A stretch of 64,000 bases of DNA from a virus, in IMG/VR virus record IMGVR_UViG_3300023174_004605, positions 31,737-95,736 of that record; one strand, 5' to 3'. The notes beneath the pieces were generated by a model. The model ran no database searches. It had not been told where the DNA came from and was given only the letters and a program-made list of their open reading frames with translations. The position numbers and the translations under genes were made by a program. Positions 6,675 to 64,000 of the stretch are shown here, piece by piece; position 1 is the stretch's first letter; the number at the start of each line of letters is the position of its first letter.

Positions 6675-6685
6675 ACATTTTGAAT

Positions 6686-10341: not shown

Positions 10342-10418
10342 TTAATTTTGATTTTAATCAGCACATAAATACCTTTCGCAACGCCGGGTTCTTCCGACGT
10401 CGGCATTCAAATCGACGC

Positions 10419-10450: not shown

Positions 10451-10518
10451 ACATAACGCCGAGCCGTAGCAGAGTTCTTCTGCAAGCTCTTAAAAATTAA
10501 AAATTTAGGAGATCTAAC

Positions 10519-34407: not shown

Positions 34408-35069
34408 TATAATTTGTAATGTTTGATTATTTGTTCAGCAAATAATTTTTGCTCATCAGCATTGGGATGTCGTAACATGGCTGGATACCAATCTCCGATC
34501 AATCCCAAGTTTACATCGACTCCAGTGATTTTATCAGACCAACAAGTTTCTATCAATTTAATATTGTTTGTTACGCAGTAGGATCGTAGTGCAGAAATAT
34601 AGTTGTTTCTTTTTTTAGTGTAAATTTCTGTATCAAATTTATATTTGATAAGCATTTTGTATATGCTATCTAACACAGGCATATATTCTGCCAAGTCCGC
34701 ACACAGTTGTGGCGTAGAATCCGTGCGGGGTGTATGTTGTCTAAATGTTTTCCATATATTAGTAGTGGTTGCCGACCACGATGGTATAAATTGCCAGGTC
34801 CGTCCAGATGATTGCCATACTTCTCGTTCGACACTGGTCCATCCCACCATGACCGCAGTAATTCTGTCATGGTAATTAGGTATAGTTTCTAATGCTGTAT
34901 GAAAAATGTTTTCGTTGCTGTTGCCACAAAATGATAGATTAACACACTCGACACCAAGGTATTTGGCCACTAGTGCTGGATAACTAAAAGGTATATTTTT
35001 TTGAGAATTACCCAAGGCTGCTATTTCTGTGCCATGTGCAACCGAACATCCAAATGCTAATATTGTCAT
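34407..35069 (-). CDS. SGNH/GDSL-hydrolase-like protein, 220 aa
   Basis: The N-terminus ILAFGCSVAHGTE places a Ser (S9) where SGNH hydrolases have the GDS nucleophile. LSFCGNSNENIF carries block III-like G and N residues, and LRHPNADEQKLFAEQI near the end supplies the catalytic His context. Such enzymes remove or add acyl groups on sugars. No signal peptide, so it would act inside the cell on glycan precursors. Confidence 0.6.
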   Translation of the reverse strand: MTILAFGCSVAHGTEIAALGNSQKNIPFSYPALVAKYLGVECVNLSFCGNSNENIFHTALETIPNYHDRITAVMVGWTSVEREVWQSSGRTWQFIPSWSATTTNIWKTFRQHTPRTDSTPQLCADLAEYMPVLDSIYKMLIKYKFDTEIYTKKRNNYISALRSYCVTNNIKLIETCWSDKITGVDVNLGLIGDWYPAMLRHPNADEQKLFAEQIIKHYKL

Positions 35070-44569: not shown

Positions 44570-45856
44570 CTATTTAATTGTTACTATGGCCTCAACAGTG
44601 CCTTCACTGTGATCCAATTTGTCACGCAGGGCGCGGCCTATCACGTTGAACGCTGTGGCCTCGCCAGTTCGTGCTGCCCGGGCCTGCCCGTTGCCGGCAC
44701 TGACTAATCTGTCTCCTTTGAGCACTTGACCGACTACTTTTACAGGAACTCGCCCAGTCATTGCAACTGGAGGGTGTGTTTCATTTGAGCCTGCTTGGCT
44801 GTTCATCAAATATGCTGCTCGTGTACTTATTACACCAAACACATTTTCGCTAAGATCGCTTGTGACTTGTGTGATTTCTGCTGATCCGCCCAGTTCAACC
44901 ACGGTACCAGGAGCATAGGCCGAATCTGCTTCAAAGCGTTCTGCTACGTCGGCATAGTTGGCGTTGATCTGGTTGCCCGAGATAGTGCCGTCGGCGCCAT
45001 TGATGGTCATCACTGTGGTAGGTGTTCCTGCCACATTGGCGCGGAACAAGAGGTCACCGTTGGTTTGGGTATTACTGAGTGTTACATCAGATCCTGCTAC
45101 TGTGACAGCAAAGTCGCCATCGGCTCCTACTGCTAGGCCTGAGTCACTGGTAGTGGTCAATTTGCCTGTGGTGGTAGCAGCCGCATCGGCTCGCATGAAA
45201 CTGAGATATCCCAATTCAAGTACACCAAGCGTGGCAGCATTGGTGATTGAGCCCTGGAACACATAGGATGCACTGGCTGTGCTGAGTGATAAACCAGGTT
45301 TGATGGTGGCAAATCCTGTGATAGGTGTCTGAGGAGTAAATGTTGTGGTGTATTGGCTCAAGATGCCCATCAATGTACCGCCCGACCAAAGTTCCAGGAT
45401 GGTGCGGTCAGTGTTGGTGTTGTCTTTGATAGTCACAGGAATAGCACCTGTGGTTCCTTGGCCGGCGCTGAACGCAGGTCCTACCAATAACCAATCGGTT
45501 CCGGTATAGACTTTGAGTTGTTCATTTGTGGTGTCGTACCATAGATCACCAACCACATTGCTTGTGGGTGCTGTGCCACTGGCCGTGGCCGAACTGATGG
45601 TTTTCCAAACCGTACCATTCCATACATTCATTACGGCATTGCCACTGTCCCACCAAAGTTGTCCAACCAGCGGAGTGCTGGGGGCTGTGGTATTAGAACT
45701 ATTTTCTAACAAGTGAACAAAGTTTTCGTCCAAATAGATACCATAACCAGCATAATTTTTGCCTGGCAAGGCCATGCTACTAGCGGTAGTATTAAGAGTA
45801 CCGTCTGCAATGGTAGTTAATACAGCACCATCGGTTAAGTTAATTACATATGCCAT
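44570..45856 (-). CDS. Tail-fibre-like virion protein with C-terminal processing-type domain, 428 aa
   Basis: The N-terminal part has repeats of GQLWWDS-x-MNVWNGTVWK and GDLWYDTTNEQLKVYTG. The middle is beta-rich (GDFAVTVAGSDVTLSN). Near residue 305 NYADVAERFEADSAYAPG begins a C-terminal domain that resembles phage tail intramolecular-chaperone or auto-processing regions. A TATAAATA late promoter and AGGACGGAG precede the ATG. Confidence 0.75.
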   Translation of the reverse strand: MAYVINLTDGAVLTTIADGTLNTTASSMALPGKNYAGYGIYLDENFVHLLENSSNTTAPSTPLVGQLWWDSGNAVMNVWNGTVWKTISSATASGTAPTSNVVGDLWYDTTNEQLKVYTGTDWLLVGPAFSAGQGTTGAIPVTIKDNTNTDRTILELWSGGTLMGILSQYTTTFTPQTPITGFATIKPGLSLSTASASYVFQGSITNAATLGVLELGYLSFMRADAAATTTGKLTTTSDSGLAVGADGDFAVTVAGSDVTLSNTQTNGDLLFRANVAGTPTTVMTINGADGTISGNQINANYADVAERFEADSAYAPGTVVELGGSAEITQVTSDLSENVFGVISTRAAYLMNSQAGSNETHPPVAMTGRVPVKVVGQVLKGDRLVSAGNGQARAARTGEATAFNVIGRALRDKLDHSEGTVEAIVTIK

Positions 45857-45906: not shown

Positions 45907-46524
45907 TTATGCAGCACTTAAATTGGTCAATGTTTGGATGCGCAGGGTGTAATCAATCTGTATCTGGCGATTCAGACTTTTCTGCACAGGGTGGAAAATC
46001 ACATGCGTGATCAAGCGCAGATCGGTGGCGCTGCCGTTCCAGCATTTTAGCCCTAGTTCATCAAACACATATTCACCATTGAAATTGGTGCTGTTGTCAA
46101 AGGCCTGTTGTCCTGGGGGCTCACCGTAGTCCAACAAACAGGTCACTAGTATATCTGTGTAAACTTTCCCAGCGGTGTGGATCACTGTCATGTAGTTGTT
46201 GACCGGATCCTGATTGGCGGCACTGTTGTCATCTACTACCTTGGCATAAGTTTCATTGTATAAGTCAGCGTTTTGGCCTGTGACGTTGGGTGGTAGATAA
46301 GTGATGATTCCAGTAGGATCCACTGAACTTCCGCCATTGCCAAATGCCATTTCATAGATCCAGCCACCGCCTTGTGCTGATGTGCGATTGCTCAAGGTCT
46401 GCGCCATGGCTATGCTGATGTTTTCATAGTGTATGGCGTTCTTTTTGTCAACCAGCACTGTGCCCGTGTTGGGATCGGTTATCTTGACAAAGCCTTCGAT
46501 TTTACACAAACCGGGTTGAATCAT
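45907..46524 (-). CDS. Virion-associated hypothetical protein, 205 aa
   Basis: Begins with KIEGFVKITDPNTGTVLVDK, then NAIHYENISIAMAQTLSNRT. The central part has GNGGSSVDPTGIITYLPPN, and the end has HVIFHPVQKSLNRQIQIDYT. No enzymatic motif; its location among tail genes suggests a structural role. Its N-terminal 20 residues are echoed by the adjacent 48-aa gene. Confidence 0.7.
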   Translation of the reverse strand: MIQPGLCKIEGFVKITDPNTGTVLVDKKNAIHYENISIAMAQTLSNRTSAQGGGWIYEMAFGNGGSSVDPTGIITYLPPNVTGQNADLYNETYAKVVDDNSAANQDPVNNYMTVIHTAGKVYTDILVTCLLDYGEPPGQQAFDNSTNFNGEYVFDELGLKCWNGSATDLRLITHVIFHPVQKSLNRQIQIDYTLRIQTLTNLSAA

Positions 46525-46683: not shown

Positions 46684-49600
46684 TTATTGACCCCGTAAAA
46701 ACCTTGCACACTGAGTATCCGTTTCGCTCAGTGGCCGATCAGGGGTAGCCAAGTTATACCAAGTATGGGCTCTGCGCACCAAGATAAGAACTTCTACTCC
46801 TTGCGGTGGGGCTGTATCAAACACCACAGTCACAGGACTTGGGTTTGTTATTGTGTAACCAGTTTGCACACGTTCGCCGCCCACATACACTTCTACACTT
46901 TCGTCACGCACAGTGCTGTCTTCTTGACTGATATCAATGTCTTGGGCTACAAAAGTTGTTGTAATGCCATCACCTTGATTCTCGCCGGGTACCAATGGAT
47001 TTGTGATGTTTGATACGATGTAATTTTGGCAAGACGCTGGCATGAGATTTCCACGGCCCATGTCATAGACCAAGGCATCTAGCTCATGGCTGGTAATAGC
47101 TGTGCCAGCTGTTCCACGCAACAGACTGCTAATCGTGTTGTTGACAGTGTCTCTGTCACGATACAAGATACGTTCACCATCTATCATAACCACTCCCCAG
47201 GTATTGGCAGCAAAGGCTCCTGAAGTCACAGACCAGTAAGTTGGGTTAGTGGGCAGATTTCCCACAGTCATGGACAAGGCCACATAAAAGCCTCCATTGT
47301 AAATGACCACATCACCAGAGTTGTAAACAAAGTTAATATTGAACTGTGCTGCCAGGCCTGGTTCAGGCAAGACACTGGCATCATCTACGTATATGACGTT
47401 GTCGGTGGCGCTGAGAGGTTGTGCCAATATAGTGGTAGTTGATGGAGTTATGCGATAGGTGGCCTGTACTCCACGCATATCTTGGAATATGCGGAATGCG
47501 ATTGGAGGTGGCACTACACTGTTGGTAAAGCTGGTCACTGCCAGCACTGCACTGGCACCAATGGTTGGACCAGATAGGGTTATTTCAGAACCCTGGGTGG
47601 TAAAATCAATGCCATTGAATAACCATGATCCATCTAAGCTAACCAGCAACCTTTCTGGATTGGCTATAAGGCGTCCAAGGTCAAAGGTATTGTTGTTGTT
47701 GATGCTAGGACCGACAAAAACTTGTGTAACAAGCCCTTGTTCTGAAGTATCATTCCAGGTTGTTAGAGTTATTATGTCTCCGGGATTAGGAACATATCCG
47801 GCTTCAAAAGTAATGGTGTCTGCTCCGGGTCCTGTGATCCTATAATCTGCATTGGTGGACACACTCAACAAGATCTGAGCTCCGGGTTCCGGCGCTGTTG
47901 TGAATGTGATGGTGCGATACAGGCTACTGCCATCCCAAGGATCAACCACAAACTGATCTCCCAACACCAGTTTGACGTTGTCAACATAAACCAAAACATC
48001 GTTATCAGACATCACAGCTGGGTTGTACCCATTGTTGTTGGGCAATTCAAAAGTGAGTGTGGTACCATCACCAGTGGCACGAACTCCAGAATATGGTCTG
48101 CTTCGTAGCCCATTGACTGTTATGACAAGATTGACCTGATTGGTGCCAGGACCGGCATAGGTCACTGGATAACTGATACTGCCATCGGCTGTGATATTTG
48201 GTTGGAATACCGGCAAGCACCAGCTGTGGGTTGGTCCGACATTGGCATATCCAAACACAGCTAAGTTGATGCGATCTGTGGATCCGTATGTGGCTGTAAA
48301 CGACACTGTGGTTGACTGTGTTCCACTGGCTGCATAGGTATAATCTACATCAGGTTCTAGTCTGATTTCACCGTTGTAGATTAAAAATTCCGAAATCAGA
48401 CTGATCGAAAATGGCACGGTGATCGTATCGCCAATCAGGTTGCCTAGGTAAGTGTTTAGATACAGTTGATTGCCGCCGCCTACACCAGTCACATAAATCA
48501 CCAAGACATCGCCAGCGTCTTCGGTAGCTCCTGCTGTGAGTGTGTAGTTGACCCAGTCGTAGCTGGAGGGTTCTATAGAGATGCCTTTGGTGGCATTGAA
48601 TGCCACCACTGTAAACGGATTTGGTAATACATTGGCAAAACTCAGCACAGGATTGGCTGGATCGTAGACATATCTAATAGAATTAGCCGGGAATCCATGT
48701 CCTGCACCATTATAATCGCTGCCAGGAGTGGTATAAACACGGAAATCCAAGGTATCAAATTCACTGCCGGGTACTAGTTCTTCGGGCGCATAGCTACTGA
48801 ATACGTCTATGTACCCGCCGCCATCAACATTGATATCCGTGGGTCTAGTACCCAAGAATTCATCTGTGTAGGAACTGCTGTAAAAAGCGTCTAATAGTCC
48901 TAGATCATAGGTTGGAAACCCTTCAGGGCTGATTGTAAGATTATCAAAGGGATTGATGTCATAGTTGCCCACATCGTATCCAGTATTGAACTCAAAGCCT
49001 AGACCATAAACCTGCACTCCAGGATAATCTAATCCGTCGATCAACAAGGGCAAATTGCGCCCAGGCATGTTGGCGCCGGGCAAGTAAAAACCTTGCGTGC
49101 GGTTAACGCCGCTGAGAGAGCTGGCTTCGACTTCGGTCCAGTCTTCAAGTATAAAGGAATCATAAAATGTAACAGTTGCTGGACCAAATGACACCAATAG
49201 AGCTTGACTCAGTGTCACTGATGTTCCAGCAGGATTATATTCCGTGACCAAGGTGCCCAAAGGTATACCCACTCCCACAACAATGGTACCATTCACCAGT
49301 GGTAAATTTGAAGGCACAGTCATTGTGAATGACCCGGCCTGGCCACTGGCTGCTACTGACACCGGTGGATTGGAGATTGTTGCGGTTGCTTGCCATACTC
49401 GATCAGTGTATCGAACTTGAGTTCCAGCTGGATATGATGCTACCAAATAACTCCAGTCAGTGATTGTGCTCTTATATTCATAACGGTCATACTTGATGAC
49501 CATGTTCATGTTGCGTACCAAGTTATTTCCCATAACGGCAATAGCGTTGGCTCCTGTGCCTCCTCCTCCAGTGAGTGTTATCGACACAGTGCTGTTGTAG

Positions 49601-52600
49601 CCAGAACCTGGCTCGATAATTTCTACTGCAATAACTCGTCCAGCTGAATTGATAACTGCTACTCCGGAAGCGGATTTGCCAACGTAGGTCAATACAGTTG
49701 TGCCGTTTTCTTGGCTGCCGGATATAAAACGTGGTGCAGCAACGCCAGACGTGCCGGATTGTGCTACCAAGTATAAGTTGCCAAAGTAAAATATTTGTTG
49801 ACCTTGAGCGTAAAGAGTTGATGCCTCCCAAGGTGTGCCTATGGTCACGTCGGGTTCACTGCTGTAGTTTTGGCCACTGTTGACTATGCGTACTGATTCC
49901 ACGCTTAACAAATAGTTGTTGAACCATTCGCTCCAGGGTGATATATTCCAAATTTCAGCATCAGCGGGTGTGTCTGCGATGTCGCTGGCAGTTCCAGTAC
50001 CCTTGGCTGTGCTCTTGGTATAGGGCAATAATATAGGGCTTACATACTGTGGAATTTCCAGTGCAGTATTATAGTAGCTGGGATTGTCAAAGTCAGTGAC
50101 AGCACCTGGATAGATGTCTTGTCCGTTATAGGCCAAGTTAAATTGTTTGACTTGCACATGATAAGGCTTGACTTCTTGCAAATAATCCAACACAAAGGTT
50201 TGGTTGTCTTGACGATAAATTTGGAATGGCAACAGTTCACGTATGTCATGCCGCACATCAATAAGGCTGGTCTTGTTCAACCAGTCTGGAGCTGATTCTT
50301 CAGTCAGGATATATTCAAACATCAAAGTCAAAAGTCTGTTGCGATAGATAGCCAAATCATCTATAAACAATTCTTGGTTGATGGCTTGTATAATACGACG
50401 AGTCTCTGTTACTGGTTCTTGATCATAGTAAGTGGCATCAAACACTTCCACATCAAACCCAAAGCGACCCAGGGCATAATCCCATAATTCTGCTTTGAAT
50501 TCTATAGTGCCGTCCTGTAGAGCCACACGGTCCCAGCCAGTGACCGTGCGCACATATATTTCAAATTTATTCTGTGCATTGGCCGTGACTTTGACACTGC
50601 TGCCTACTGCTACTGTGGTCAAAGAAGCCAGACTAGCATAGTTTGGAACTTCTGCCACTGGCACAGTGTTGGGATTGTAACCCAGCTGATACCAATCTAT
50701 GTGTTGCCAATAGTTTCTGGTGTCGTAGGTTTGTACCCTAGATAATTGAGTGGTTCGCGGAGCATCTATGGCTGCTGATTCAAGCACAACGGTATATATG
50801 GTCCAGGCACCGTTGTTGGCGCTGTCACTCAACACCAAATAATTATAGCCCAATGGTACTGCATATAAATTCTGATAGCCGAGTTCTTCAATGTTGTTGA
50901 CTATCTTGTTATACACTTGCTCAGATGGTGCCGGAACTGGTTCACGAGAATTAAGTAAAGTGAATCGGCGCAGTTCGATTATAGGCAGGTATTTTAGTAT
51001 TTCATTTGCACGTGTGAGATAATTTTGCAAGGCCAAGAAACGATTCACAAACATGCTTTGGCGTGGTACAAATTGCACGCCATATCGTTCGGGCGGACTC
51101 AAGAACGGATCTGGAACCTGTGCTCCGCTGGTATCGTAACCGCAGAAACTGTCCTGTAGTTTTCTATATAAATTTGCAGACAAAAAACTTTCAGGTTTGT
51201 CTTGCGCAATTAGCTGGTATTCACTATGGACATTTGCATCTGATAACTCCTGTTCAAAATCTATATGCAATATGGTGTCAAAAGCCGACAAGTATTGTAG
51301 ACCATTGTAGATAGCCACGGTGCTGGCATCCAGTGCTGCCAAATATGGTATACCGCTGCTTCTGGGATCTTCAATGTAGCGAGCTATGCCCGTGGTGCTG
51401 AGTGTTTTACCGGCATTGGTGTCGATGGTTGTTAGTCCGGTTACCCAGAAATAATACACTGTTTCAAAGGTGCCTACATTGGTCAAATTGGTCTTGATGG
51501 TATAGCTGACAGTGTCAAATGGAATACCAGGACCAGTGTAGCTGGCTGGTGGCACTGAGCTGGCCGTCCACTGATAGATCTCAACACGACTTCCAGGGAA
51601 CACCTGTCCCCAGCGCCGGCTGGCATAAACGATGTCATCTTGATTGGGGTCAATAAATCGCACTGAATCAGTATTCCACCAAATTTCCCCAACTCGATCT
51701 CCGGCCCAGAAATTGCCATAGTTGTTGACCGGGCCAAAGTTATATTGTGCAGGATCTATGGCTCCAATGAAATCTATATTTTGTTTGGCTGCTCCCAAGA
51801 TCTTGCCTTGCAAAGGATCAAAGAAATCAAAGAAATATGTTTCTGTGCTTTCTAATTTGTTGAACATGTAAACACTGTTCAACAAACGCACATCTACCAC
51901 TGGTCGCTGTTGCCGCAGGACTTTCCAGGCTGGTTCACGATTGGCGTTGTTGAATTCACTCACACGACCATAGTCACCGGTGCTGTCACCAAGATCATAG
52001 CCTGGACTACCTATCAATAGTTTGCCATTGGTATAATTGACTGCTGTGCCCCAAAGATCCAATGGTCTAATCAAGGTGTCAAACACTTGTTGACCAAACA
52101 CAAACTTACCAGGGTTGGTCACAGTATCTGTTGAGCTTGGCAGGTAATCGTATGTATAAACCACACCACTCTGTAACACAGGGTTGAAGAAAGTAGTGCT
52201 TCGGTCATCAAAGTATGTGGTTCCGTTGTCAAAAGTTTCTGGCTGGTATAAATTACCACCTGGCGCACCCACTACTAAGGTCGAGGCCGACGAGTCTATG
52301 TTTACTGCGGCACCAAAATTGGCATTGGCCACTGGGTTTGGACTGGTTATAGTTTGTGTATAAGCAAAAAGTTCCAGGCCTAGATCTGCATAGGCTGTGC
52401 CGGTGGTGCCTGGCAATACAGTCAATCGATTGAATTCATCTGCGGCTTCCACATTGACCACACTGATGGTCAACCGACCGTCACTGGCCGTGGCAGTTAC
52501 GTTGGGTATACCTTCTGCTACTATGGCAGCCGCCAGGCCCTCTACAGTGTTGTTGGGAGAATTGGGCACAGCGACTGGCATGTTGTTAATGTGTATAGTG

Positions 52601-55600
52601 TCTCCAAAAGTCAAGGTAGGATTGACAGTGGTAGAAGTGATGGTACCGTACACTCGCGCTTGGTTCACGTTGCGTTGAACTGAACCTGCTCCGACCAACA
52701 CAGTTCCGTCCACAGGAGCACCGGTATAGATGCTACAGTTATTTGGACACACATCAACGGTAGCGCCAAACTGTGATTCGTCAAAAGGAGCATTGGCTGT
52801 GATTTTTTGCACCTGAGTGAAAATATTGCTTTCCAGTTCCAGGATATCGCCCACAGACGTTGTCACATTCAAGATTACCTGATTACCGCTAACAGAAAAT
52901 TCGCCATTGATGTATTGAGCACTGTTGGTAAGATATTGATTGTTTAATAAAACTGCCACGGGTTCCTGGAATCCTACAGGCAATGTGTAGTTTGTCTGCG
53001 CAGTATTGTCAACGATAAAACGTTGCACACTGCGATCAAACACATATGTTGCACCAGCACGCGGATGATCTATATCTGCACTGTCGTTGCTGGCTCCAAT
53101 AATGACCTGGCGGCCATCGGTGGTGGTTTTGATCCGGCTGCCAAATCTAGCTGTGGGATCCAATCCTGCAACTGAGACAGTGTCAATAAATTGCCAATAA
53201 GTTCTTGCTAGTATTTTTATTAGGTCACCGCTGTCTGGTGCAACTGTGAAGACCAAGTCTGATCCAGAAAGTGTGTAGTCCAGCAAGGGTCTCTGTATGA
53301 CATCGTTGACATACACAGAGAAACTGTAAATATTTGTAACAGTGTATAGGTTGCTTTGCAGAGCATAAACTGTGGTGCTGCCATCACCGGTAAAATCTTG
53401 TTCAATTTTTCTAGTAATGATCAACCTGTTGTCCGCAGGTGGCGTAGAAGCCAACGTCACAGTGGTGCCTGCCACAGCATAATCTACTCCCTGAGTCAAC
53501 AGTTGATTGTTCAACACCACAGCCAGTTGATCAGAATTGTTGAATTCGATTAGTCCTGCTAAATTATAAACTTCAAAAATTCCTGTGGTTGTAAATTCCA
53601 CCATCTGTGTAGGCTGATCTACTCGCCCATAGGCATACACTTTGTTTTTTCCAGGTGCTGCCACATACATCCAACGTTCGTCGGCACTGATGGTGACAGC
53701 ATAACCAAATTCGGCACCTGTGAAATCCCCGTCAGGTGAACGCAATAGTTGTGTTTGTTGAAACGCAGAACTGGCTGAATCTCGAAATATGGTCACAGCA
53801 TAGCCTTGATTGCTGTTGCTGGCACTGGCACCTGCTATGGCCCAGTTTTGATGACCTATCTGCAGATCATTACCGTAGCCTTGTGTGCCAGTGGCACCTA
53901 ACAAAATGATAGGACTCTGGGCATACAGATTTTCAGTATCTCTTAGATAAGGAAACAGGCCACCGGTTCCGCCGTTGTAACTTGGAGCCCCTACCAAGGC
54001 CATGATGTTTTGCGAACCCTGCGAAATGCTGGTGCCATAATCAGACTGGCTTTCAACAGGTTCTACGGGAGTGAGTATCAGTCCCGATTTAAACGGATTG
54101 GTTTTTTCAATGACTTCCCATAGTCCAGCACCATTGTTGTCTACCCAGACCCTGGCACCAGGAATAAGATCATTGGCATAAGGTAAATTTAACACATCAC
54201 TGGCCTGAGGCACTCGCACTGTTTGGAACCTAAATGCTATGCCGACTCCGGCAATGGAGCCTGCAATATCCAAGGCTATCACAATGGATCTTGGATTGGG
54301 CACAGATAATACTCGATAGATACCATCCACAGCTGGATCAAAATATCTGATTACAACTATGTCATCAACGGTTAGTTCTATGCCCTGAGTGAATTGTATG
54401 ATTGCGGTGCCATTGAGATTTGACACAGCAGATTCAATGAACCCAGGCACTGCGTCACTTCTATACACATTCCAGTCGTAGCGATTGCTCTTGGCTGCCC
54501 AGACCGTGGTGCCAATACCAATGGTATCCAACACACCTGGAGCCAGACCCAGCTGACCCTCTAAGCTGAACACCGTGACATCCACGTCATCAAGATTCAC
54601 ATATCCTGCACTGGGCAAAGCTGTATCAGTGACCTGGACAGTGGTCGTTGGGAAAATTACCGGACTTGTGACATTATAACTTTCACGCCATAAATTTTGG
54701 TAGAGTATGGATTGATCGGCTATACTGGTCTGTTGCGGAGCAATGATCTGTACAGTGCTGGGGTTGGATTGCAACTGGGCTTCATTGAGTCGCATCTCAA
54801 TGAATCTACGATTGGCTGTGGCTCCATACAGGCCACGCAGTATGGCCCAATTTTCAAATATCTGATACTGTGCGACTTCCTTGTTGAGATCGGCATTGGC
54901 CAACAGTCTCACACTTTGTATGGTTCCTTTGTCTTTGATGAATTGTTGATAAACATTGACTTGACTGACGTCATCTAAATTCAAATCTGTCATGTATTGA
55001 CGTGGTCTGAATCCTATTAGGCCATAAGCAAACAAGTCTTGTTCAATTTCCAAATTGGCCTGGTTTACAGCATAGGTTGTGGCCAACTGATCGGCCTGAT
55101 TGGCTATGTTCTGCAACATGCCACGTTGTATCTTGGTATAATCACTTTGTGTCCAATCACTGCGTCGGAATTCAGCAGCTGGCTGGACAATGTTCAATGC
55201 AGAATAGTAACTGTTTTTGTAAAGAACAATCTCGCCTTTGGTGTATTTTTTATAAGGTTGCCATTGTTGAACCGTGGCATCGTTATTGTAGATAAAGCCT
55301 TGTGCATCTAGTTGTCCGTTCCAATCGGCACTGACTGTGGCTATAACATTGACACGACTTTGTCTTGCACCAGTGGCTGGATCGTAGATCAAGTCATTGA
55401 ATATGCTGACATTGTCCAAGACTACCATGCTTTCATAGCTGGTATAGCGCAGGTCTATGTAACTTATGGTTTGTGCGCTGAGGCTATTGACTTTGAAAAT
55501 ATTTTCAAAACGGTCTACCACTAGATCGCGTGTGGGTATAGTTGTCCTGTTTTGGTCAAGGATTAAATTTTCAGGAGTTTGCGCCACTATAGAATCTATC

Positions 55601-58600
55601 ACAGCTTCCGCCTTGACAGCGGTCAAACTAGTAGCTGTGGGATTTAGATTAATCACACTGCCTACTGCCCAGCCCTGATTGGTCCAGTATAAAAATTCTT
55701 GGGCCATTTGATCCCAATTTAGGGCGTAGCCATTTTCACGATCGTCGAAAACTATGCCTTGACTTTCCAGCAGGGCACCGTAGCTGAGCAAGAAATCACA
55801 AACCACTGTGGGATTGGTAAACACATATCCATAAGGTATCTGCACTACATCTTGATAGTAGGTGCTGGGCACCTGCACTGTGGTGCCTCCGGCAGATATG
55901 ATTTTCGTTGGACCGGCGGTACGACTGGCCAAGATTTCAAAGTATGGATTGGTTATGCTGTAACCAAAAACTGCCCATCCATCCTCGACCACTTGCACTA
56001 TGACTGAACTATAGACCACACGATCAAAAGGTTGATTTTTGTATACCAGGAGATTGTAACTTTCGTCTGGCAACAACAAACTACTGTTCAAACTTTCAGG
56101 ACTGCTTCGTTCGGTGAATATCTTGAGATATTGTTTGTCTGTGAATGCACCCATCCTGTAGCACAGTCTTACATCAAGCAAGGATAGATCTTCTGTTAGC
56201 TTGACCGTGGAATCCTGTCCAAGTTGTTGATTGTAATCAATGATCCAGTCTATGTAACTGGCCTTGCTGGTTCCGTTTCCATACACTTCTACACCATTGG
56301 CATCCAAACGATAACGCTGGTTATAAAGATATTGTCCTAAATCCGCGTCATATTTGTAAAGATCTCTGTCGGCAAACAGGCTGAAAAACTCTGCTGGCCG
56401 GGTCAAGGCCAACAAGCGCATGACCGCAAATGGATAACTGGAACTGCTCCTCCAGGAATACTCCACTGGCCCTTCATCGCCAAACACCCAACTCTTCTGG
56501 AATTGGCTTGAATCATACAAGCCGACCACGCTGTAGAACGGACTCAGCAGTTGTCCTTCACTGTCAACAGGTATAACTTGTTGCAGTCCGGGTCTAGCAT
56601 AGCGAGGTTTGAAGTATTCTCCCGCAGGATCTGCCACTCGGCCTACTGATAGATCATCCCACAGAACCAAGTTGCCTGAAGTATACGGTGCTGGGCCATA
56701 TTGGTCTTCCCACCAGGTGGGTTTTTCACTGAAACCCAACATCTCCCATGGTGTGGTGTGCGGTGTAGGAGTGTCGTAGAAATATTGATAGATACCACGC
56801 CAGGCTCCTACTGGTAAAGGTGTTTCTGTAGAAGCACTGGATGAACTGATCCTGTTGCCACAGGCGCTGTAGTTCCAGGTAAATTGATTGGCAGGATTGT
56901 AATCTTGTGCGGTATAGGCTAACTTGTTCCAGCCAACCCAGCTCAAGAAACTGGGTGCCAGGATCTGATTGACCTCGCTGAGGCTGTAATCAGTGGTCCT
57001 AAACTGCCCAGGAACCACATCAACTATGCTGAGTGGAATTGGTGATTTGATCTTGAGATTGTTGAAGATTCTGGTTTCAAATTCTAGCAACAGTTGGTCT
57101 CGGAAATCGCCAAATGCAACAGTTTTACTGCCGTCATGCCCTTGTATGATCAAGGTAGGATTGGTATAAGTTGCATCTAGATAAATTCTGGGCCGAAACG
57201 CTGGATACAGTCCTAATTTTGTTGGTGTGTTGGGCACAAAAGTGCCATAGGTGGTGGCATATTCTTGTATGACAATTACGTCTCCTACACTAAGAGGAAT
57301 GGTGACAGTTAGTGTAGGACCGTCGGTGCTGACCACATAGTCATAGCCAGCCTGCAAGATCACATCATTTACATAGACCAACACACTCTGATAGTTGCTA
57401 CTGGTAAAGTTGTAAGTTGTGTTGAGGTTGAATACAGGTGTGGATATAGGCGAATATGTCACTGTTTGTTCAGTGTAAACCGCGTTGGCTGGCAACATGT
57501 CTGTCCAGTAGAAAGGACTCAGTTGTGTGCGTCCAGCCACCAAGCCGGTGACAATGGCTGTGACCATGTCTGGTATGGTGTAATTGGTATAGTCATTGGT
57601 TACAGCTGCATTCAAAAACTGTGTTTTATATTGCTCATATTCGCGGCCGTTGTAAGCCAAGGAATTAAAAATATTGTATTGGGCTGATCGCATGAAGTAG
57701 CCAGCCAAGGTCATGGGACTGCTGTTTTGTATGATACTGGTACCGTAGGGTATGATATCGCCTAGGTCTCGTGAGTTGTTGTTGCCGTTGATCGGGCCCA
57801 CTAGATCCAACAAGTTTTGGCAGATGGATTCATAGTGAGTGCGTGCTGTGCCCAAGGTAAAATAAGGACTGTTGACGTTTAAGGGATTGTTTTCAAGATT
57901 GATAGGAACTTGATAAAACGCCACTTTGCTGGCTTGATCACTGAGCACGTTGACTTCGATTAGGTCACCGTCGGCAAAGGCTGCTCTGTCGTTGTAAGTG
58001 GTCTGCAAAAAGGTAATAGTTGTGCTGTCTGCTGTTGTTGTCACAGTATATTTGTAGGGTTCTTGGAACTGGCTACCTACATATAACTGCACACTGGGCA
58101 CAACATCGTCGGGCAACACTGCCACATCAAGTTGCAAAGGTCTTCCGTCATAGCTGAATTGGAATTGTTGTCGGCTTCGGCTAGGAACTGCGGCTGTTTG
58201 CCACCCTAGTTCACGTTGGTAATCCACACGATTGCTGTATTGGCGCACAAAACCATCACTTACAGATTTGGTATAGCTGACACTGTCTTTGGTATAGATG
58301 AATGTGTCGGTGTAAAGATTGTTATCAAATACAATGTCACCAATATTGGTCAAGCTCAAATAACGCAACGGAAATCCCAACACCGGATCATTGCCTCCGC
58401 TGGCCTGAGCGTAGGAAAACAATTTACTGCCTTCAAAATTGCTGCTGGGATATTTGATCTTGTTTGAAAAACTAAATCCATCTTGATCATACACATCAAA
58501 AAGAGGTGGTTGATTTACAGCAGTTTTTTGTTGTGCAGGAATCCAATCCACTCCATCAAACCAAAAACTCTTTCCTTGTTGTGTAAGACCACTGAGGACC

Positions 58601-60999
58601 ACCACAGTGTTGTTTAATAATGCACTGCCATCAGCGGCCGGAGTCAAATTGATTATTGGCTCGGCGATCAAGGGCGGTACAGTGTCAGGCGTGATAAATT
58701 CTACAGTGTAGATGTTGTTTCGGACCTCAGGATTTGAGTCGTTGGCAAATATTACCCGGGTGCCTGTGATAAAATTGTATCCGTCGACACCATAACCGGT
58801 GCTTCCGTTGATTGTGCTCAGTGCATCTGTGGCAACAAAATCAATGATATCAACCGGTTGTTTGCTGGCTGTTCCAAAATCATACAATCTAGTGCCTGCT
58901 CTAAATTCAAGTATGGGTCTGCGACCCCGGGCGAGATTGTCTACCACAGGCACTGTGTTGTTGTATTTGGCCGACTGTTCGATGACACTGACATGGAACC
59001 AGCGATTGCTACGACTCCAGGCATTGAGATCTGGACTGGATCGACTTATAGTGATATAGTCAGGTATCAACGGCTGATTAAGACTGGCGTCATAATTGCC
59101 CACATCGTAGGCCGTTGAATCGTAAGGCACCGAAGCACTTTGTGTATAGGTCTCTGGGGTTACAAAACTTGAAACCGGCAACAGTTGTATAGACGTTCCT
59201 ACCCCTTCAACATAGTATTCTTTGTTTTTATAACTTGTAGGTGTTACTTGACCCAAGAACTGCACTTTGAGTCCGTTGGTAAAAACTACACCATTGGGAC
59301 TAGTATAGTATTTTTGTCCTATAATGTCGGCAATATCTAATGTGTTGGCTTGATCAGCATCGATGATCTTGATACGACCAAAAATTTCTGGATCTGTTCC
59401 GTCTTGATAGAACAGCAGATTTCTAGTAGCAGTCAACAAAGGTATCTGATCAAATGCGCCGTCGGCGTCCTTGTACCAACCAGTATTGCTCCATTGAGAA
59501 CCAAATTGTATAACAAACTTGTAGAGATCGGGAATCTCATACACACTGGTAAGTTGCATGTATTGTCCGCCGCCTACGGCAGTCACATACTGTATCTGCC
59601 ACACACTGCGCTGTATGGCCACATCAACTATAGGGGTGGTCTGATCAAATGATATGCTATCAAAACTGCCAGGTAAACCATTATCGGTAGAGAGCTCAGG
59701 CAATGGATCATACTGGCTGTTGATCAACCATCCACCGGTTGCAGGATCGGTTTCAGGTTCAGTGAACACTATGGTACGACCATTGAGGTTTGTTATGCCA
59801 TCTATGCCCTGAGGAAACTGTGCCAGGAATTGATCAACAAAAATATTGTTGAGTTGATTGAATTTTACATCTGTGGCCAACAGATCCACAGAACCATTGT
59901 TAAAGGCTATGGGCGTCAATGCATAGTAAAAATCTTGTGCGGTGCTCAACGGCACATCAAAGGTTATGGTTCCAAGATCTTCGCCATTGTTGATCACTCC
60001 GTTGACTTCACTGAGTCGGCTGCTGATATTTGGAGTGCTGGGTATGCGTCCATTGACTCCGGGGTCAGTCTGTATCCAAAAGCCTGGGCCTGTGCCAGGG
60101 GTGGCATCCACAATGTTGATCACCCCTTGCATGTTTGGTTGTGTGGAGTTGTTGTAATACAATGTATCTGGCGCATTCTGTGGAACCACAAATGTTATTG
60201 TGCCATTGCTGGCTCCATTGTTGGTTACTCCTTGGGTGAACAGATTGTTGATGCCCAAAGTCTGTTGTGTTTTGATATAAAATCCCAACGGTGCTGTGGG
60301 AACAATAGTAAAAATATATGTGTTGCCACGCACCAAGGTCAAGGTAGGATTTGTGACATAGTCAATAACCCAGGCACTGGTGCCTTGATTGCTCACACGG
60401 AAATTAACTGTTTCTTTGGCGTTTTGCGCTACTTCAAAGGTATAACTTCCACTACGAACCAAGGTCAAGGAAGGATTGTTGCCAGCCACTCCAGAAAATG
60501 TGTACACTCCATTTTCTCTAGTGACCACAAAATTGTCAGTCAGTGGCACTGAGCCACTGAACACATCCACTACCTCAGGACCGGCCGGCAACCAATAATA
60601 CTGGCTGTAGTTGATAAATTTGTCAAAATCTACAAAGGGATCCCAGGCATAGTATTCGCTGGTGTAAAGACGATCGGCCTGGTTGGTTATGGCTCCTTGC
60701 AGATTCAATGCATCAGTGATGCCAGGATAGGTTATGGCGTCTTGTATTTTGTTGGACTGATCCGGGTTCCTTACAATCACTCCAGGTTCAAGTTGATAAT
60801 TTACACGGGTGTCCGTTTGTTCGGCCACATATTTGTCATTAGGATTGACTCCGGGTCCTACTCGTCTGCCCACATAACCTTGTATGCGCTTGAATTTGGG
60901 TTCTTGGACCAGCTGATCCAGCGTAGCCGACAAGACCTGGCGATTGGTACTGGTTTGGAAAATTTCTGGTAGGAAATCTACTGATCTGGTGCGGGCCAT
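46684..60999 (-). CDS. Giant virion protein, 4771 aa, with FG-GAP-like repeats
   Basis: A single uninterrupted frame of 14.3 kb; its ATG shares a base with the stop of the gp6-like gene. The N-terminus (MARTRSVDFLPEIFQTS) is followed by a Tyr/Trp-rich conserved block up to about residue 150. Many modules have the form V-x-LNN-x-x-L-x-x-G-x-DY...GD-x-I-x-I, likely beta-sandwiches. Residues about 2310-3010 carry repeats such as FGYAVTISADERWMYVAAPG and FGAAVNIDSSASTLVVGAPG, an integrin-type FG-GAP propeller pattern. A late GERILYRDRD segment occurs at about 4600. Position suggests a baseplate or fibre protein (gp7/gp10-like place), perhaps involved in host binding. Confidence 0.85.
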   Translation of the reverse strand: MARTRSVDFLPEIFQTSTNRQVLSATLDQLVQEPKFKRIQGYVGRRVGPGVNPNDKYVAEQTDTRVNYQLEPGVIVRNPDQSNKIQDAITYPGITDALNLQGAITNQADRLYTSEYYAWDPFVDFDKFINYSQYYWLPAGPEVVDVFSGSVPLTDNFVVTRENGVYTFSGVAGNNPSLTLVRSGSYTFEVAQNAKETVNFRVSNQGTSAWVIDYVTNPTLTLVRGNTYIFTIVPTAPLGFYIKTQQTLGINNLFTQGVTNNGASNGTITFVVPQNAPDTLYYNNSTQPNMQGVINIVDATPGTGPGFWIQTDPGVNGRIPSTPNISSRLSEVNGVINNGEDLGTITFDVPLSTAQDFYYALTPIAFNNGSVDLLATDVKFNQLNNIFVDQFLAQFPQGIDGITNLNGRTIVFTEPETDPATGGWLINSQYDPLPELSTDNGLPGSFDSISFDQTTPIVDVAIQRSVWQIQYVTAVGGGQYMQLTSVYEIPDLYKFVIQFGSQWSNTGWYKDADGAFDQIPLLTATRNLLFYQDGTDPEIFGRIKIIDADQANTLDIADIIGQKYYTSPNGVVFTNGLKVQFLGQVTPTSYKNKEYYVEGVGTSIQLLPVSSFVTPETYTQSASVPYDSTAYDVGNYDASLNQPLIPDYITISRSSPDLNAWSRSNRWFHVSVIEQSAKYNNTVPVVDNLARGRRPILEFRAGTRLYDFGTASKQPVDIIDFVATDALSTINGSTGYGVDGYNFITGTRVIFANDSNPEVRNNIYTVEFITPDTVPPLIAEPIINLTPAADGSALLNNTVVVLSGLTQQGKSFWFDGVDWIPAQQKTAVNQPPLFDVYDQDGFSFSNKIKYPSSNFEGSKLFSYAQASGGNDPVLGFPLRYLSLTNIGDIVFDNNLYTDTFIYTKDSVSYTKSVSDGFVRQYSNRVDYQRELGWQTAAVPSRSRQQFQFSYDGRPLQLDVAVLPDDVVPSVQLYVGSQFQEPYKYTVTTTADSTTITFLQTTYNDRAAFADGDLIEVNVLSDQASKVAFYQVPINLENNPLNVNSPYFTLGTARTHYESICQNLLDLVGPINGNNNSRDLGDIIPYGTSIIQNSSPMTLAGYFMRSAQYNIFNSLAYNGREYEQYKTQFLNAAVTNDYTNYTIPDMVTAIVTGLVAGRTQLSPFYWTDMLPANAVYTEQTVTYSPISTPVFNLNTTYNFTSSNYQSVLVYVNDVILQAGYDYVVSTDGPTLTVTIPLSVGDVIVIQEYATTYGTFVPNTPTKLGLYPAFRPRIYLDATYTNPTLIIQGHDGSKTVAFGDFRDQLLLEFETRIFNNLKIKSPIPLSIVDVVPGQFRTTDYSLSEVNQILAPSFLSWVGWNKLAYTAQDYNPANQFTWNYSACGNRISSSSASTETPLPVGAWRGIYQYFYDTPTPHTTPWEMLGFSEKPTWWEDQYGPAPYTSGNLVLWDDLSVGRVADPAGEYFKPRYARPGLQQVIPVDSEGQLLSPFYSVVGLYDSSQFQKSWVFGDEGPVEYSWRSSSSYPFAVMRLLALTRPAEFFSLFADRDLYKYDADLGQYLYNQRYRLDANGVEVYGNGTSKASYIDWIIDYNQQLGQDSTVKLTEDLSLLDVRLCYRMGAFTDKQYLKIFTERSSPESLNSSLLLPDESYNLLVYKNQPFDRVVYSSVIVQVVEDGWAVFGYSITNPYFEILASRTAGPTKIISAGGTTVQVPSTYYQDVVQIPYGYVFTNPTVVCDFLLSYGALLESQGIVFDDRENGYALNWDQMAQEFLYWTNQGWAVGSVINLNPTATSLTAVKAEAVIDSIVAQTPENLILDQNRTTIPTRDLVVDRFENIFKVNSLSAQTISYIDLRYTSYESMVVLDNVSIFNDLIYDPATGARQSRVNVIATVSADWNGQLDAQGFIYNNDATVQQWQPYKKYTKGEIVLYKNSYYSALNIVQPAAEFRRSDWTQSDYTKIQRGMLQNIANQADQLATTYAVNQANLEIEQDLFAYGLIGFRPRQYMTDLNLDDVSQVNVYQQFIKDKGTIQSVRLLANADLNKEVAQYQIFENWAILRGLYGATANRRFIEMRLNEAQLQSNPSTVQIIAPQQTSIADQSILYQNLWRESYNVTSPVIFPTTTVQVTDTALPSAGYVNLDDVDVTVFSLEGQLGLAPGVLDTIGIGTTVWAAKSNRYDWNVYRSDAVPGFIESAVSNLNGTAIIQFTQGIELTVDDIVVIRYFDPAVDGIYRVLSVPNPRSIVIALDIAGSIAGVGIAFRFQTVRVPQASDVLNLPYANDLIPGARVWVDNNGAGLWEVIEKTNPFKSGLILTPVEPVESQSDYGTSISQGSQNIMALVGAPSYNGGTGGLFPYLRDTENLYAQSPIILLGATGTQGYGNDLQIGHQNWAIAGASASNSNQGYAVTIFRDSASSAFQQTQLLRSPDGDFTGAEFGYAVTISADERWMYVAAPGKNKVYAYGRVDQPTQMVEFTTTGIFEVYNLAGLIEFNNSDQLAVVLNNQLLTQGVDYAVAGTTVTLASTPPADNRLIITRKIEQDFTGDGSTTVYALQSNLYTVTNIYSFSVYVNDVIQRPLLDYTLSGSDLVFTVAPDSGDLIKILARTYWQFIDTVSVAGLDPTARFGSRIKTTTDGRQVIIGASNDSADIDHPRAGATYVFDRSVQRFIVDNTAQTNYTLPVGFQEPVAVLLNNQYLTNSAQYINGEFSVSGNQVILNVTTSVGDILELESNIFTQVQKITANAPFDESQFGATVDVCPNNCSIYTGAPVDGTVLVGAGSVQRNVNQARVYGTITSTTVNPTLTFGDTIHINNMPVAVPNSPNNTVEGLAAAIVAEGIPNVTATASDGRLTISVVNVEAADEFNRLTVLPGTTGTAYADLGLELFAYTQTITSPNPVANANFGAAVNIDSSASTLVVGAPGGNLYQPETFDNGTTYFDDRSTTFFNPVLQSGVVYTYDYLPSSTDTVTNPGKFVFGQQVFDTLIRPLDLWGTAVNYTNGKLLIGSPGYDLGDSTGDYGRVSEFNNANREPAWKVLRQQRPVVDVRLLNSVYMFNKLESTETYFFDFFDPLQGKILGAAKQNIDFIGAIDPAQYNFGPVNNYGNFWAGDRVGEIWWNTDSVRFIDPNQDDIVYASRRWGQVFPGSRVEIYQWTASSVPPASYTGPGIPFDTVSYTIKTNLTNVGTFETVYYFWVTGLTTIDTNAGKTLSTTGIARYIEDPRSSGIPYLAALDASTVAIYNGLQYLSAFDTILHIDFEQELSDANVHSEYQLIAQDKPESFLSANLYRKLQDSFCGYDTSGAQVPDPFLSPPERYGVQFVPRQSMFVNRFLALQNYLTRANEILKYLPIIELRRFTLLNSREPVPAPSEQVYNKIVNNIEELGYQNLYAVPLGYNYLVLSDSANNGAWTIYTVVLESAAIDAPRTTQLSRVQTYDTRNYWQHIDWYQLGYNPNTVPVAEVPNYASLASLTTVAVGSSVKVTANAQNKFEIYVRTVTGWDRVALQDGTIEFKAELWDYALGRFGFDVEVFDATYYDQEPVTETRRIIQAINQELFIDDLAIYRNRLLTLMFEYILTEESAPDWLNKTSLIDVRHDIRELLPFQIYRQDNQTFVLDYLQEVKPYHVQVKQFNLAYNGQDIYPGAVTDFDNPSYYNTALEIPQYVSPILLPYTKSTAKGTGTASDIADTPADAEIWNISPWSEWFNNYLLSVESVRIVNSGQNYSSEPDVTIGTPWEASTLYAQGQQIFYFGNLYLVAQSGTSGVAAPRFISGSQENGTTVLTYVGKSASGVAVINSAGRVIAVEIIEPGSGYNSTVSITLTGGGGTGANAIAVMGNNLVRNMNMVIKYDRYEYKSTITDWSYLVASYPAGTQVRYTDRVWQATATISNPPVSVAASGQAGSFTMTVPSNLPLVNGTIVVGVGIPLGTLVTEYNPAGTSVTLSQALLVSFGPATVTFYDSFILEDWTEVEASSLSGVNRTQGFYLPGANMPGRNLPLLIDGLDYPGVQVYGLGFEFNTGYDVGNYDINPFDNLTISPEGFPTYDLGLLDAFYSSSYTDEFLGTRPTDINVDGGGYIDVFSSYAPEELVPGSEFDTLDFRVYTTPGSDYNGAGHGFPANSIRYVYDPANPVLSFANVLPNPFTVVAFNATKGISIEPSSYDWVNYTLTAGATEDAGDVLVIYVTGVGGGNQLYLNTYLGNLIGDTITVPFSISLISEFLIYNGEIRLEPDVDYTYAASGTQSTTVSFTATYGSTDRINLAVFGYANVGPTHSWCLPVFQPNITADGSISYPVTYAGPGTNQVNLVITVNGLRSRPYSGVRATGDGTTLTFELPNNNGYNPAVMSDNDVLVYVDNVKLVLGDQFVVDPWDGSSLYRTITFTTAPEPGAQILLSVSTNADYRITGPGADTITFEAGYVPNPGDIITLTTWNDTSEQGLVTQVFVGPSINNNNTFDLGRLIANPERLLVSLDGSWLFNGIDFTTQGSEITLSGPTIGASAVLAVTSFTNSVVPPPIAFRIFQDMRGVQATYRITPSTTTILAQPLSATDNVIYVDDASVLPEPGLAAQFNINFVYNSGDVVIYNGGFYVALSMTVGNLPTNPTYWSVTSGAFAANTWGVVMIDGERILYRDRDTVNNTISSLLRGTAGTAITSHELDALVYDMGRGNLMPASCQNYIVSNITNPLVPGENQGDGITTTFVAQDIDISQEDSTVRDESVEVYVGGERVQTGYTITNPSPVTVVFDTAPPQGVEVLILVRRAHTWYNLATPDRPLSETDTQCARFLRGQ

Positions 61000-63900
61000 T
61001 AAATCACTCCACTGCCCGGAGCAGTTCTGATATTGGTGCTGGTCAAGGCCTCGATCACTTCAACATTGGCCACAGTGGCCGCATTGACAAAGATCTGATT
61101 TGGTGCACAACGTATTTCATAAAGATCGCCAAAATATTTTTCTGGATTTAGCGGCACTAATACCACACTGCTGATAATGCCGGCCATGTTGTCATGCAAG
61201 TAGGCCGACAGTTCTGAAAAATAAAAAGTGTCTCCAAAATCCCAAATATCCAAACTAAAATAGTTGTTGAGATTTTGCACTACAAGATTTTTTATTTCGC
61301 TGGTGGTGGCAACACTGTTAACAGCCCTGATTACCTTGATAGTGGCACGCAGTGGTTCGGGCGCCTTGGCACCAAACAAGGGTTGAAATTCCACACTGTT
61401 CATGATCAAGGTATCTGAAATCATTTTGTAATCTTGCAAGCCACCATAGGTAGTAGTGAGATAATCAATGGTAGGCACTTCGGGTTCTGGCACAGTGCCG
61501 GTGGTGTCTGTGATATAATTTTGATAAGCAATGTAATATTCATTGGTAACCACATATACATCGATAATATTGGTAGTGCCAGGATCTATCCTGTTGTTTA
61601 ATGGACTGTTGTGTCGGTATTGGAAAAACAGACTTTGGCGCCCGGTGCGTGCAATATAGTCATTGGTCTGTTGCAGAGTTCTAACACCTGTGATTAGATC
61701 TATGAACAGGATGTAAAACAATGCTGTTTCGTAGGCATAGAAAACTTGACCAGCTGCAAACTCGCCCTTGACCAATTCGATATCGTCCAAGGTAGCATAC
61801 AAGCTATTGACCAGCCCAGGTTCCATCAACACGTATCTCTGTAGATTATCAAAATCCACTATGCGTTGCAAGAACACCCAGGGACTGTTGATCGTGGCTG
61901 GATCTGGCACCGGTCCTACTATTTCTTCAAAAAAGTCTGGATTGTCCGGCACACCATCGTTGTCTCGATCTGCATAGCTGACCAACACTTGATAATCATC
62001 CACAACGCCATCACTCTGTATGGGTTGATCTATGATTTTTGTGATCACGTCTGAACCCAAGGGCAAGGACGAGTCAGGTCTGCTGTTAGTTTTGAGTATG
62101 TTGACAAAATCACTGATAGTGGTTCCGGTCCTGCTGTCATAGACCTGTTGATCGGTAGAGAAGAAAAATCTTGTTTGGACCACGCTGCCAAAATAGTAAT
62201 CAAGAGCACGAAAACTGGTTGTGTAAAAACTGCCATTGAACACAAATTCCACAAACCAGGATGAGTCCAAATTGGCACCCGAGGTGTCTCCGGCATGTGC
62301 TTGGCTCCATGGCGCATCAATGTCTAAATTTGTGCTAGTAATCAAATACCAAGTGCCTGATGTGCCGGTTATGGTTCCTAAGTTGTCAAATCCTATGCCA
62401 AAATTTCTTCTTAGTCTGATCTGCTCAGCCATGCTGGTTTCAAAACTCACAGGAAGATCTGTGACAAAGATAGGTATTACTTGGGTGGCTATTGCACCAG
62501 TTGGCACATAGTTGTTGATGGCCACTGGTCCTAACCCATCTATAACTTGAGTTCCTTCAAGATATACCTGTAAGGGGCTGGCCCAGATAACTAATTTTTC
62601 GTCGGCTCTGGTGGGTGTGCCTGCACGCAATCGGTTGTTGACATCGAAGTAATAACCCACAGGCGGCACAAATTTGACTAGACTTCCCGGAACGATATAC
62701 CGTGTGTTGTTACTGGTTGTAGGACCTATAGGCACAGCATTGCCTAGGCTGTTTTTAAAATAACCTGTGCTGGTGTTGGCCAATGTTGTATTGAGGTTCC
62801 AGGTCAGATTCAATGACGTCAAACTGGAACGAGGAAACTTTGCATAATAAAACTGTTTTGATTGGCTACGGGCCAACGCAGGTTGCACCTGGTTCACAAT
62901 CACATTGTCAATTTCGTTATTAGTAACGGTGGTAAACTGAAATGTGGGCAAACTAAAATTTTCATACAAGGCTCCGTCACTGCTGAAAGTGTTAGTGCTG
63001 CTGTATTTGCCGGTGTTGTCTACCAGATCTAAATATCTGCTGATTCCAATGCTGGCTCGATTCACTGCTTTGCTTTTTAATATAGAATTGTACGCAGTGT
63101 AAGGAAAATTGTTGTAGTCTTCACCATTGACCATGCGATTCTGTGTGTAGTATCTGGCTGGTGCCCGAGCCTTGATCTCATCTATGGTTTCTCTGGGTTG
63201 TGCGTTGCTGACCGGTGTGGTGATACCACAAGTAAAGGTAATGGTTTCTAATTGACCAGTGCGACTCACATAGCTGATAGGAATGGCTACTCCTTGCATT
63301 TCTTCAGGATTGATGATATATTGTAGGCCGTTGCTGGCACGGACATAACAACGGAAAGTGCCCACCGGTATGGCACTGAACACACCATCACCAAAGTTCA
63401 GGGTGATCTGATCATTGGTTCTGCTGGTGGTGCTGAAAAGTTTTCTTTGCCCAGGAGCAATTTGCTCGGCAGCGGCGCCATATACACTGGGCACAAATTC
63501 CCATTCGCTGGCTATGCTACCAACATTGTCCAGCTGATACAGCCAACGGTCTTCGTTGTTGACTCCTTCGATATTGATGTCAACTGCACGATTGCTCACA
63601 CGATCTGCAAGATTGAAGTCTTGATTCTGCAGAACACCTTGTTTGAACAAAAAGAAGTATCCGGTGTTGGCACTGGCAAACCCCAGTTGATCATTGCGGA
63701 ACAAGACGTTGAATATGCCATTGGGTCTGGGACTAGGTTCATACACAAAACTCTTACCCACGGTGCTGGCAGTGACTGCTTCAAAAGGCATGTTGATACC
63801 ATCCACTGTGGCTGTATACGGAACTACTGGCAAATAACCAGGAACTAGATTGATGCTGTATTCGGCGGTGTCTATTCCTAGAATAGTGGTGCGTGATCCA

Positions 63901-64000
63901 GGAACACCGATGCGTTGTGCATCAATCAAAGACGCATTGATGATGGCCGTGAACTGCTCTTGCCAGCTAAAGTTGGTGGGATCTGCCCAGTTGACTGTGA
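60999..64000 (-). CDS. gp6-like: Baseplate wedge protein, T4 gp6-like (5' truncated)
   Basis: The frame is open to the window edge: upstream of a TTG at 63929 it continues with WADPTNFSWQEQFTAIINAS, so the gene starts outside. About 1000 codons are visible. RETIDEIKARAPARYYTQNR, then MVNGEDYNNFP, is the conserved segment of the gp6/baseplate J-like family. AFAAGQVFYAYETALFY-type beta-rich regions and a C-terminal SLDIWDFGDTFYFSELSAYL also fit. It builds the hexagonal baseplate wedge of contractile-tail phages. It ends one base into the giant gene. Confidence 0.85.
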   Translation of the reverse strand, partial: TVNWADPTNFSWQEQFTAIINASLIDAQRIGVPGSRTTILGIDTAEYSINLVPGYLPVVPYTATVDGINMPFEAVTASTVGKSFVYEPSPRPNGIFNVLFRNDQLGFASANTGYFFLFKQGVLQNQDFNLADRVSNRAVDINIEGVNNEDRWLYQLDNVGSIASEWEFVPSVYGAAAEQIAPGQRKLFSTTSRTNDQITLNFGDGVFSAIPVGTFRCYVRASNGLQYIINPEEMQGVAIPISYVSRTGQLETITFTCGITTPVSNAQPRETIDEIKARAPARYYTQNRMVNGEDYNNFPYTAYNSILKSKAVNRASIGISRYLDLVDNTGKYSSTNTFSSDGALYENFSLPTFQFTTVTNNEIDNVIVNQVQPALARSQSKQFYYAKFPRSSLTSLNLTWNLNTTLANTSTGYFKNSLGNAVPIGPTTSNNTRYIVPGSLVKFVPPVGYYFDVNNRLRAGTPTRADEKLVIWASPLQVYLEGTQVIDGLGPVAINNYVPTGAIATQVIPIFVTDLPVSFETSMAEQIRLRRNFGIGFDNLGTITGTSGTWYLITSTNLDIDAPWSQAHAGDTSGANLDSSWFVEFVFNGSFYTTSFRALDYYFGSVVQTRFFFSTDQQVYDSRTGTTISDFVNILKTNSRPDSSLPLGSDVITKIIDQPIQSDGVVDDYQVLVSYADRDNDGVPDNPDFFEEIVGPVPDPATINSPWVFLQRIVDFDNLQRYVLMEPGLVNSLYATLDDIELVKGEFAAGQVFYAYETALFYILFIDLITGVRTLQQTNDYIARTGRQSLFFQYRHNSPLNNRIDPGTTNIIDVYVVTNEYYIAYQNYITDTTGTVPEPEVPTIDYLTTTYGGLQDYKMISDTLIMNSVEFQPLFGAKAPEPLRATIKVIRAVNSVATTSEIKNLVVQNLNNYFSLDIWDFGDTFYFSELSAYLHDNMAGIISSVVLVPLNPEKYFGDLYEIRCAPNQIFVNAATVANVEVIEALTSTNIRTAPGSGVI

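Follow-up and report, generated by a model that had tools for sequence, protein, structure and literature searches.

The giant open reading frame (ORF) at positions 46684-60999 of the window, the stretch of DNA analysed here and the final 64 kb of a 95,736-base IMG/VR virus record, encodes a protein that by profile comparison is a member of an already known, almost unstudied family in the tails of jumbo myoviruses. We consider it likely that this protein is a wedge-associated baseplate scaffold that fills the place of gp7 of phage T4 and is here equipped with adhesive surface modules.

An intact giant ORF and its family

The ORF lies on the minus strand, starts with an ATG codon and continues for 4771 codons without interruption, specifying a protein of 525 kDa with a pI of 4.4. 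The longest open stretch found upon shuffling the DNA of the gene (50 shuffles) was 215 codons. Thus, the coordinates and length given in a preliminary description of this DNA were correct, with the strand being minus. An assembly artefact or a set of fused ORFs was ruled out by the existence of 83 complete such ORFs on other contigs. The protein matched PHROG 10938 ("virion structural protein") with E=5.3e-294, the match falling in four stretches. Homologous loci in IMG/VR, recovered in groups of 44 and 58 that in part overlap, yielded the 83 complete ORFs, whose products range from 2985 to 5059 aa; the size of the window gene is therefore typical of the family. The earlier remark that it ranks among the larger phage genes was fair, but 4771 aa is ordinary within PHROG 10938. 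As five IMG/VR contigs carrying the family gene measure 328-345 kb, the window DNA most likely derives from a jumbo phage of around that size. Seven homologue matches fell in metagenome-assembled genome (MAG) bins; being spread over unrelated phyla, they are most likely misbinned phage contigs, and no host is claimed from them. In one relative (L092), the giant frame is divided over a pair of ORFs (1698 and 3006 codons), which may be natural or may be due to a frameshift in sequencing.

Annotated homologues include PA5oct gp355 (3857 aa), Atu_ph07 AUZ94962 (4449 aa), RaK2 ORF070 (3326 aa) and a 4555-aa protein of Sinorhizobium phage Phosso, as well as phAPEC6 gp245, SCTP-2 gp140, XacN1 ORF325 and a protein of Vibrio phage 2.275.O. 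The window protein is homologous to the giants of PA5oct, Atu_ph07, phAPEC6, RaK2, SCTP-2 and AP-J-162 in its N-terminus, its core and a second conserved block. Some members are known to be virion proteins. Seventeen unique peptides of phAPEC6 gp245 (382 kDa) were identified by mass spectrometry (MS) of virions (PMC7247149), and PA5oct gp355 bears an "ESI-MS/MS" mark in its record. CBB_236, which adjoins the wedge protein CBB_237 and gave 21 peptides in virion MS (PMC5259590), is probably also a member, judging from gene position. By analogy with these MS-detected homologues, the window protein would likewise be present in virions, in line with its initial description as a virion protein.

Two further features of the window were recorded. 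A permuted (two-piece) tmRNA gene lies at 3326-3738 on the plus strand, with the tag ANASNDEVFALAA and a score of 106.5 bits against the Rfam tmRNA_permuted model (cut-off 47). The gene recurs in seven of ten related environmental contigs searched and in phage Phosso; searches of Atu_ph07, PA5oct, RaK2 and SCTP-2 did not find it. The phage tmRNA may redirect host trans-translation. In the interval 26806-40073, a cluster of genes encodes five proteins that Pfam identifies as radical-SAM and/or SPASM, two similar ones that Pfam does not match, and also a carbamoyltransferase (28058-29533). NAD-epimerase-like and aminotransferase-like genes lie nearby (21080-23087), along with genes that look glycosyltransferase-like by eye. 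The cluster may produce a sugar, nucleotide or peptide in modified form.

Baseplate gene order and the relationship to T4 gp7

The baseplate neighbourhood proposed for the giant gene was borne out by the adjoining gp6-like wedge gene (60999-63998, minus strand; its 5' end is cut by the contig end). The product of this gene matched phrog_10646 (E=2e-212) and phrog_219, the T4 gp6 family (E=7e-11). Its stop codon and the ATG of the giant gene have one base in common in a TAATG junction. PHROG 10938 members, with sizes of 3.2-5.1 kaa, are known from RaK2-, Atu_ph07- and PA5oct-like jumbo myoviruses, where they follow gp25- and gp6-like genes. In Atu_ph07, PA5oct, RaK2, phAPEC6, Phosso and XacN1, the gene before the giant is gp6-like and is itself usually preceded by a gp25-like gene; in Vibrio phage 2.275.O the preceding gene is also gp6-like but is annotated for its CBM. 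AP-J-162 gp58 (4455 aa) follows a 1198-aa wedge protein (PMC11242549), and IMG/VR loci containing both the gp6-like gene and the giant have the same order as the isolates. The exception is SCTP-2, where a long unannotated gene precedes the giant and the gp6 profile match lies elsewhere in the genome, at 231 kb. This preceding SCTP-2 gene (gene 141, locus 2633-11923) is itself 9.3 kb long and encodes 3097 aa, so that two giants stand side by side. On the other flank of the window gene lies a 205-aa gene (45907-46524, minus strand; phrog_11259), which relatives have kept close to the giant or immediately behind it. A 428-aa gene after the giant (44570-45856), conserved in PA5oct and Phosso, likely encodes a fibre or pin protein; its C-terminal part resembles the Peptidase_G2 intramolecular chaperone, at a score just below the Pfam cut-off.

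The T4 order is gp6-gp7-gp8, and the giant therefore stands in the slot of gp7, as was originally noticed. The suggestion that it might be recognizable as gp7 or gp10 found no support, and no gp7 match was obtained in the PHROG scan, in hhalign comparisons, in PDB profile searches or in a Foldseek search with the modelled core. For hhalign, 15 overlapping segments of the giant (700-aa windows) were compared with profiles of T4 gp6 through gp12. None exceeded 6% probability for gp7, gp8, gp9, gp10, gp11 or gp12, in a test of limited reach whose positive control, the accepted gp6 neighbour, itself scored only 28% (E=6e-4). No T4 baseplate entry occurred among the 50 PDB matches listed by Foldseek for the core. 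Profile searches of 13 related genomes found the gp6 family in all 13 and gp7 (phrog_964) in none, although the latter was detected in T4, the positive control. The gp8 family gave a single stray match of 28 residues, in Atu_ph07; the gp10 family gave only partial matches, the best in PA5oct. The lack of gp7 and gp8 in these relatives may reflect divergence beyond detection.

These data bear on the possibility that the giant truly descends from gp7, having grown greatly and diverged so far that its sequence no longer betrays the relationship. The identical slot in a gp25-gp6-X order, the failure to find gp7 elsewhere in the relatives and the weakness of the hhalign control speak for such descent. 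Nevertheless, we consider it unlikely, as neither the PHROG scan, hhalign, the PDB profiles nor the core Foldseek search (E<=0.001) gave any gp7 signal, and as the gp6 neighbour is recognized by its PHROG whereas the giant is not recognized as gp7. T4 gp7 is a baseplate wedge protein of 1032 aa, a monomer present in six copies. The giant, 4.6 times larger, has the same position after gp6 and a proposed role at the wedge periphery, but no likeness to gp7 was found in sequence profile or, for the modelled core (aa 1000-2195), in fold, and its propeller, CBM5/12 and beta-modules are without match in gp7. Probably, then, the giant works like gp7 in place, without detectable gp7 ancestry.

Conserved scaffold and inserted modules

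Alignment of the family divides the protein into conserved blocks (aa 1-190, 500-2200, 3000-3700 and approximately 4000-4100) and variable ones (aa 200-500, 2230-3065, 3690-3910 and 4130-4771). The N-terminal segment (aa 1-190, 60430-60999; this and all features below are on the minus strand) carries the motif FLPEIFQT.TN...ATLDQL. It is the slowest evolving part of the giant (pN/pS 0.065), and we propose it as the wedge anchor. The following domain of about 100 aa (aa 188-304, 60088-60438), cupredoxin-like as tentatively judged by eye, is common to cyanophage tail-fibre-like proteins. The cyanophage matches obtained with residues 1-2772 as query were due to this domain and do not denote a related giant. 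The scaffold core (aa 1000-1900, 55300-58002) was modelled as part of aa 1000-2195, with a mean pLDDT of 72.7 and mostly confident prediction between approximately aa 1100 and 1870. Foldseek found no PDB match to this model at E<=0.001; its long matches in BFVD were family members. The second scaffold block (aa 3065-3690, 49930-51807) has a pN/pS of 0.088. A phmmer search of the PDB with the whole protein gave no match, and PDB profile searches with the N-terminus, aa 600-1010, the second block and the C-terminus gave nothing convincing.

The variable middle block contains the FG-GAP-like region of about 700 residues that had been noted from the sequence. Seven blade motifs of the FG-GAP type (at aa 2321, 2375, 2431, 2619, 2744, 2895 and 2983) fall between approximately aa 2315 and 3020 (51940-54057), and Pfam FG-GAP_2 matched the segment with E=1.2e-9. 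The AlphaFold2 model of aa 2230-3065, built from 46 sequences, had a pLDDT of 89.0 and a pTM of 0.87, and the predicted fold confirmed a seven-bladed beta-propeller. Foldseek placed integrin alpha subunits in all ten top ranks of the PDB matches to this model, the best with E=6e-10 and a target-normalised TM of 0.60, and integrin alpha-IIb ranked first, weakly (E=0.0044), in a PDB profile search. The propeller thus shares with integrin alpha its seven FG-GAP blades. It differs in that beta-modules sit between its blades and in that these blades (aa 2315-3020) lack the DxDxDG calcium motif, the sole copy in the protein lying at aa 4055. Some FG-GAP propellers are without DxDxDG calcium loops, as are individual blades of others. 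The likeness is one of fold and is no proof of common function or of integrin-like ligands.

The modular architecture foreseen for the protein is apparent in two other module types. Repeated DY...GD modules are real, with five clear copies (aa 1205, 2491, 2559, 2680 and 4204) and two marginal ones (4148 and 4334), but they do not form a long array; at the DNA level, TRF detected only one short 9-base repeat inside the gene. The seeds of the beta-module model were chosen by eye at aa 1205-1250 (57250-57387), at aa 2491-2534 (53398-53529) and 2559-2602 (53194-53325) between blades 3 and 4, and at aa 2680-2728 (52816-52962) between blades 4 and 5; the copy at 4204 was recovered by the model. CBM5/12 (PF02839; chitin-binding type 3) was matched by Pfam in three stretches, two of them placed by motif. 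One such module, at aa 1912-1935 (55195-55266), also had chitin-binding matches in Foldseek; another was placed by motif at aa ~3724-3760 (49720-49830). The fast-evolving, length-variable C-terminal region (aa 4130-4771, 46687-48612), delimited by alignment, motifs and pN/pS, holds a third (~4559-4600) together with the beta-module at aa 4204-4250. This beta-rich composition bears on the idea that the giant acts like a tape measure or spans the hub and has no relation to the wedge periphery. Only the very large size speaks for it; with beta-modules, a propeller and glycan-binding-type modules instead of a long helical composition, and with a gene paired with wedge rather than hub genes, we regard it as extremely improbable.

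Family comparison indicates that the propeller is an insertion into the conserved scaffold, absent from short members. Long members have a middle block of 630-1100 aa; that of PA5oct has 343 and that of SCTP-2 has 434. In RaK2, phAPEC6, Vibrio phage 2.275.O and XacN1 it is only 131-191 aa, which leaves no room for a propeller. Pfam detected FG-GAP repeats in the middle block of the window protein and of five IMG/VR relatives, but not in the matching segment of Atu_ph07, Phosso, PA5oct or SCTP-2. Because shorter members confirmed by MS have no room for it, the propeller is dispensable for the basic role of the protein.

The propeller and the C-terminal modules also evolve at roughly double the rate of the scaffold. 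Among 72 close pairs, many with sequences in common and hence not independent, the N-terminus had a pN/pS of 0.065 and the two conserved blocks had values of 0.086-0.088, the scaffold as a whole spanning 0.065-0.11. Values were higher in the propeller with its inserts (0.14-0.20) and in aa 3690-3910 plus the C-terminus (0.14-0.16). Relative to the nearest relative, replacements cluster in aa 2251-2700 (72 of 450 codons; elsewhere mostly about 5 per 150). Since synonymous changes are likewise raised in this interval, part of the divergence may result from exchange by recombination. Positive selection was not seen in the propeller, whose pN/pS stayed below 0.2 in the 72 pairs. The pattern is compatible with surface modules that are less constrained or whose targets change; in the propeller, it may represent relaxed constraint rather than receptor adaptation.

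The adhesive modules raise the question of whether the giant serves chiefly in host recognition, as a long fibre or adhesin that is fixed to the baseplate without being a structural part of the wedge. The integrin-type propeller, the CBM5/12 and beta-modules, the domain in common with cyanophage tail-fibre-like proteins and the raised pN/pS of the adhesive modules would all suit such a protein. However, strongly conserved scaffold makes up much of the giant (aa 1000-1900 as well as 3065-3690), and it is the adhesive modules that are optional; its gene order is fixed with gp6, and the relatives have separate fibre genes downstream. A chiefly adhesive protein thus seems rather improbable to us, and the wedge-associated scaffold remains our preferred interpretation.

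A proposed wedge scaffold with exchangeable surface modules

In the arrangement that we propose, the two conserved blocks (aa 500-2200 and 3000-3700) would join with the N-terminal segment in a wedge-associated scaffold at the baseplate rim, present in one copy per wedge as reported for gp7 in T4 (PMC3004832). The N-terminus would dock on gp6, and the scaffold would fill the place of gp7 and perhaps that of gp8 too. We found no structure or localisation for any PHROG 10938 member; the baseplate position thus rests on gene order and on the occurrence of homologues in whole virions. In the window lineage, the scaffold would carry exchangeable surface modules: beta-modules, modules of the chitin-binding type and, inserted at a single site, the propeller. 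Additional contact with the cell surface, probably directed at glycans, would be made by the propeller together with the CBM-type modules before or during baseplate opening. Presumably the propeller takes part in host recognition or in holding on to the host. It is conceivable, though we put this forward tentatively, that in environmental jumbo phages of ~340 kb the wedge scaffold itself binds the cell via its propeller and glycan-binding modules, and that these modules are exchanged to alter host contact, with recognition not being left to separate fibres.

The giants are among the largest phage-tail proteins and recur in many groups of jumbo myoviruses. No solved structure could be detected as a relative of their core, and the only annotations given to members are "virion structural protein" and "hypothetical protein". 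Should the giant take the place of gp7 and gp8, the periphery of the T4 baseplate would not be universal, even where gp6 and gp25 are kept, and the wedge scaffold itself could accommodate plugged-in adhesive modules.
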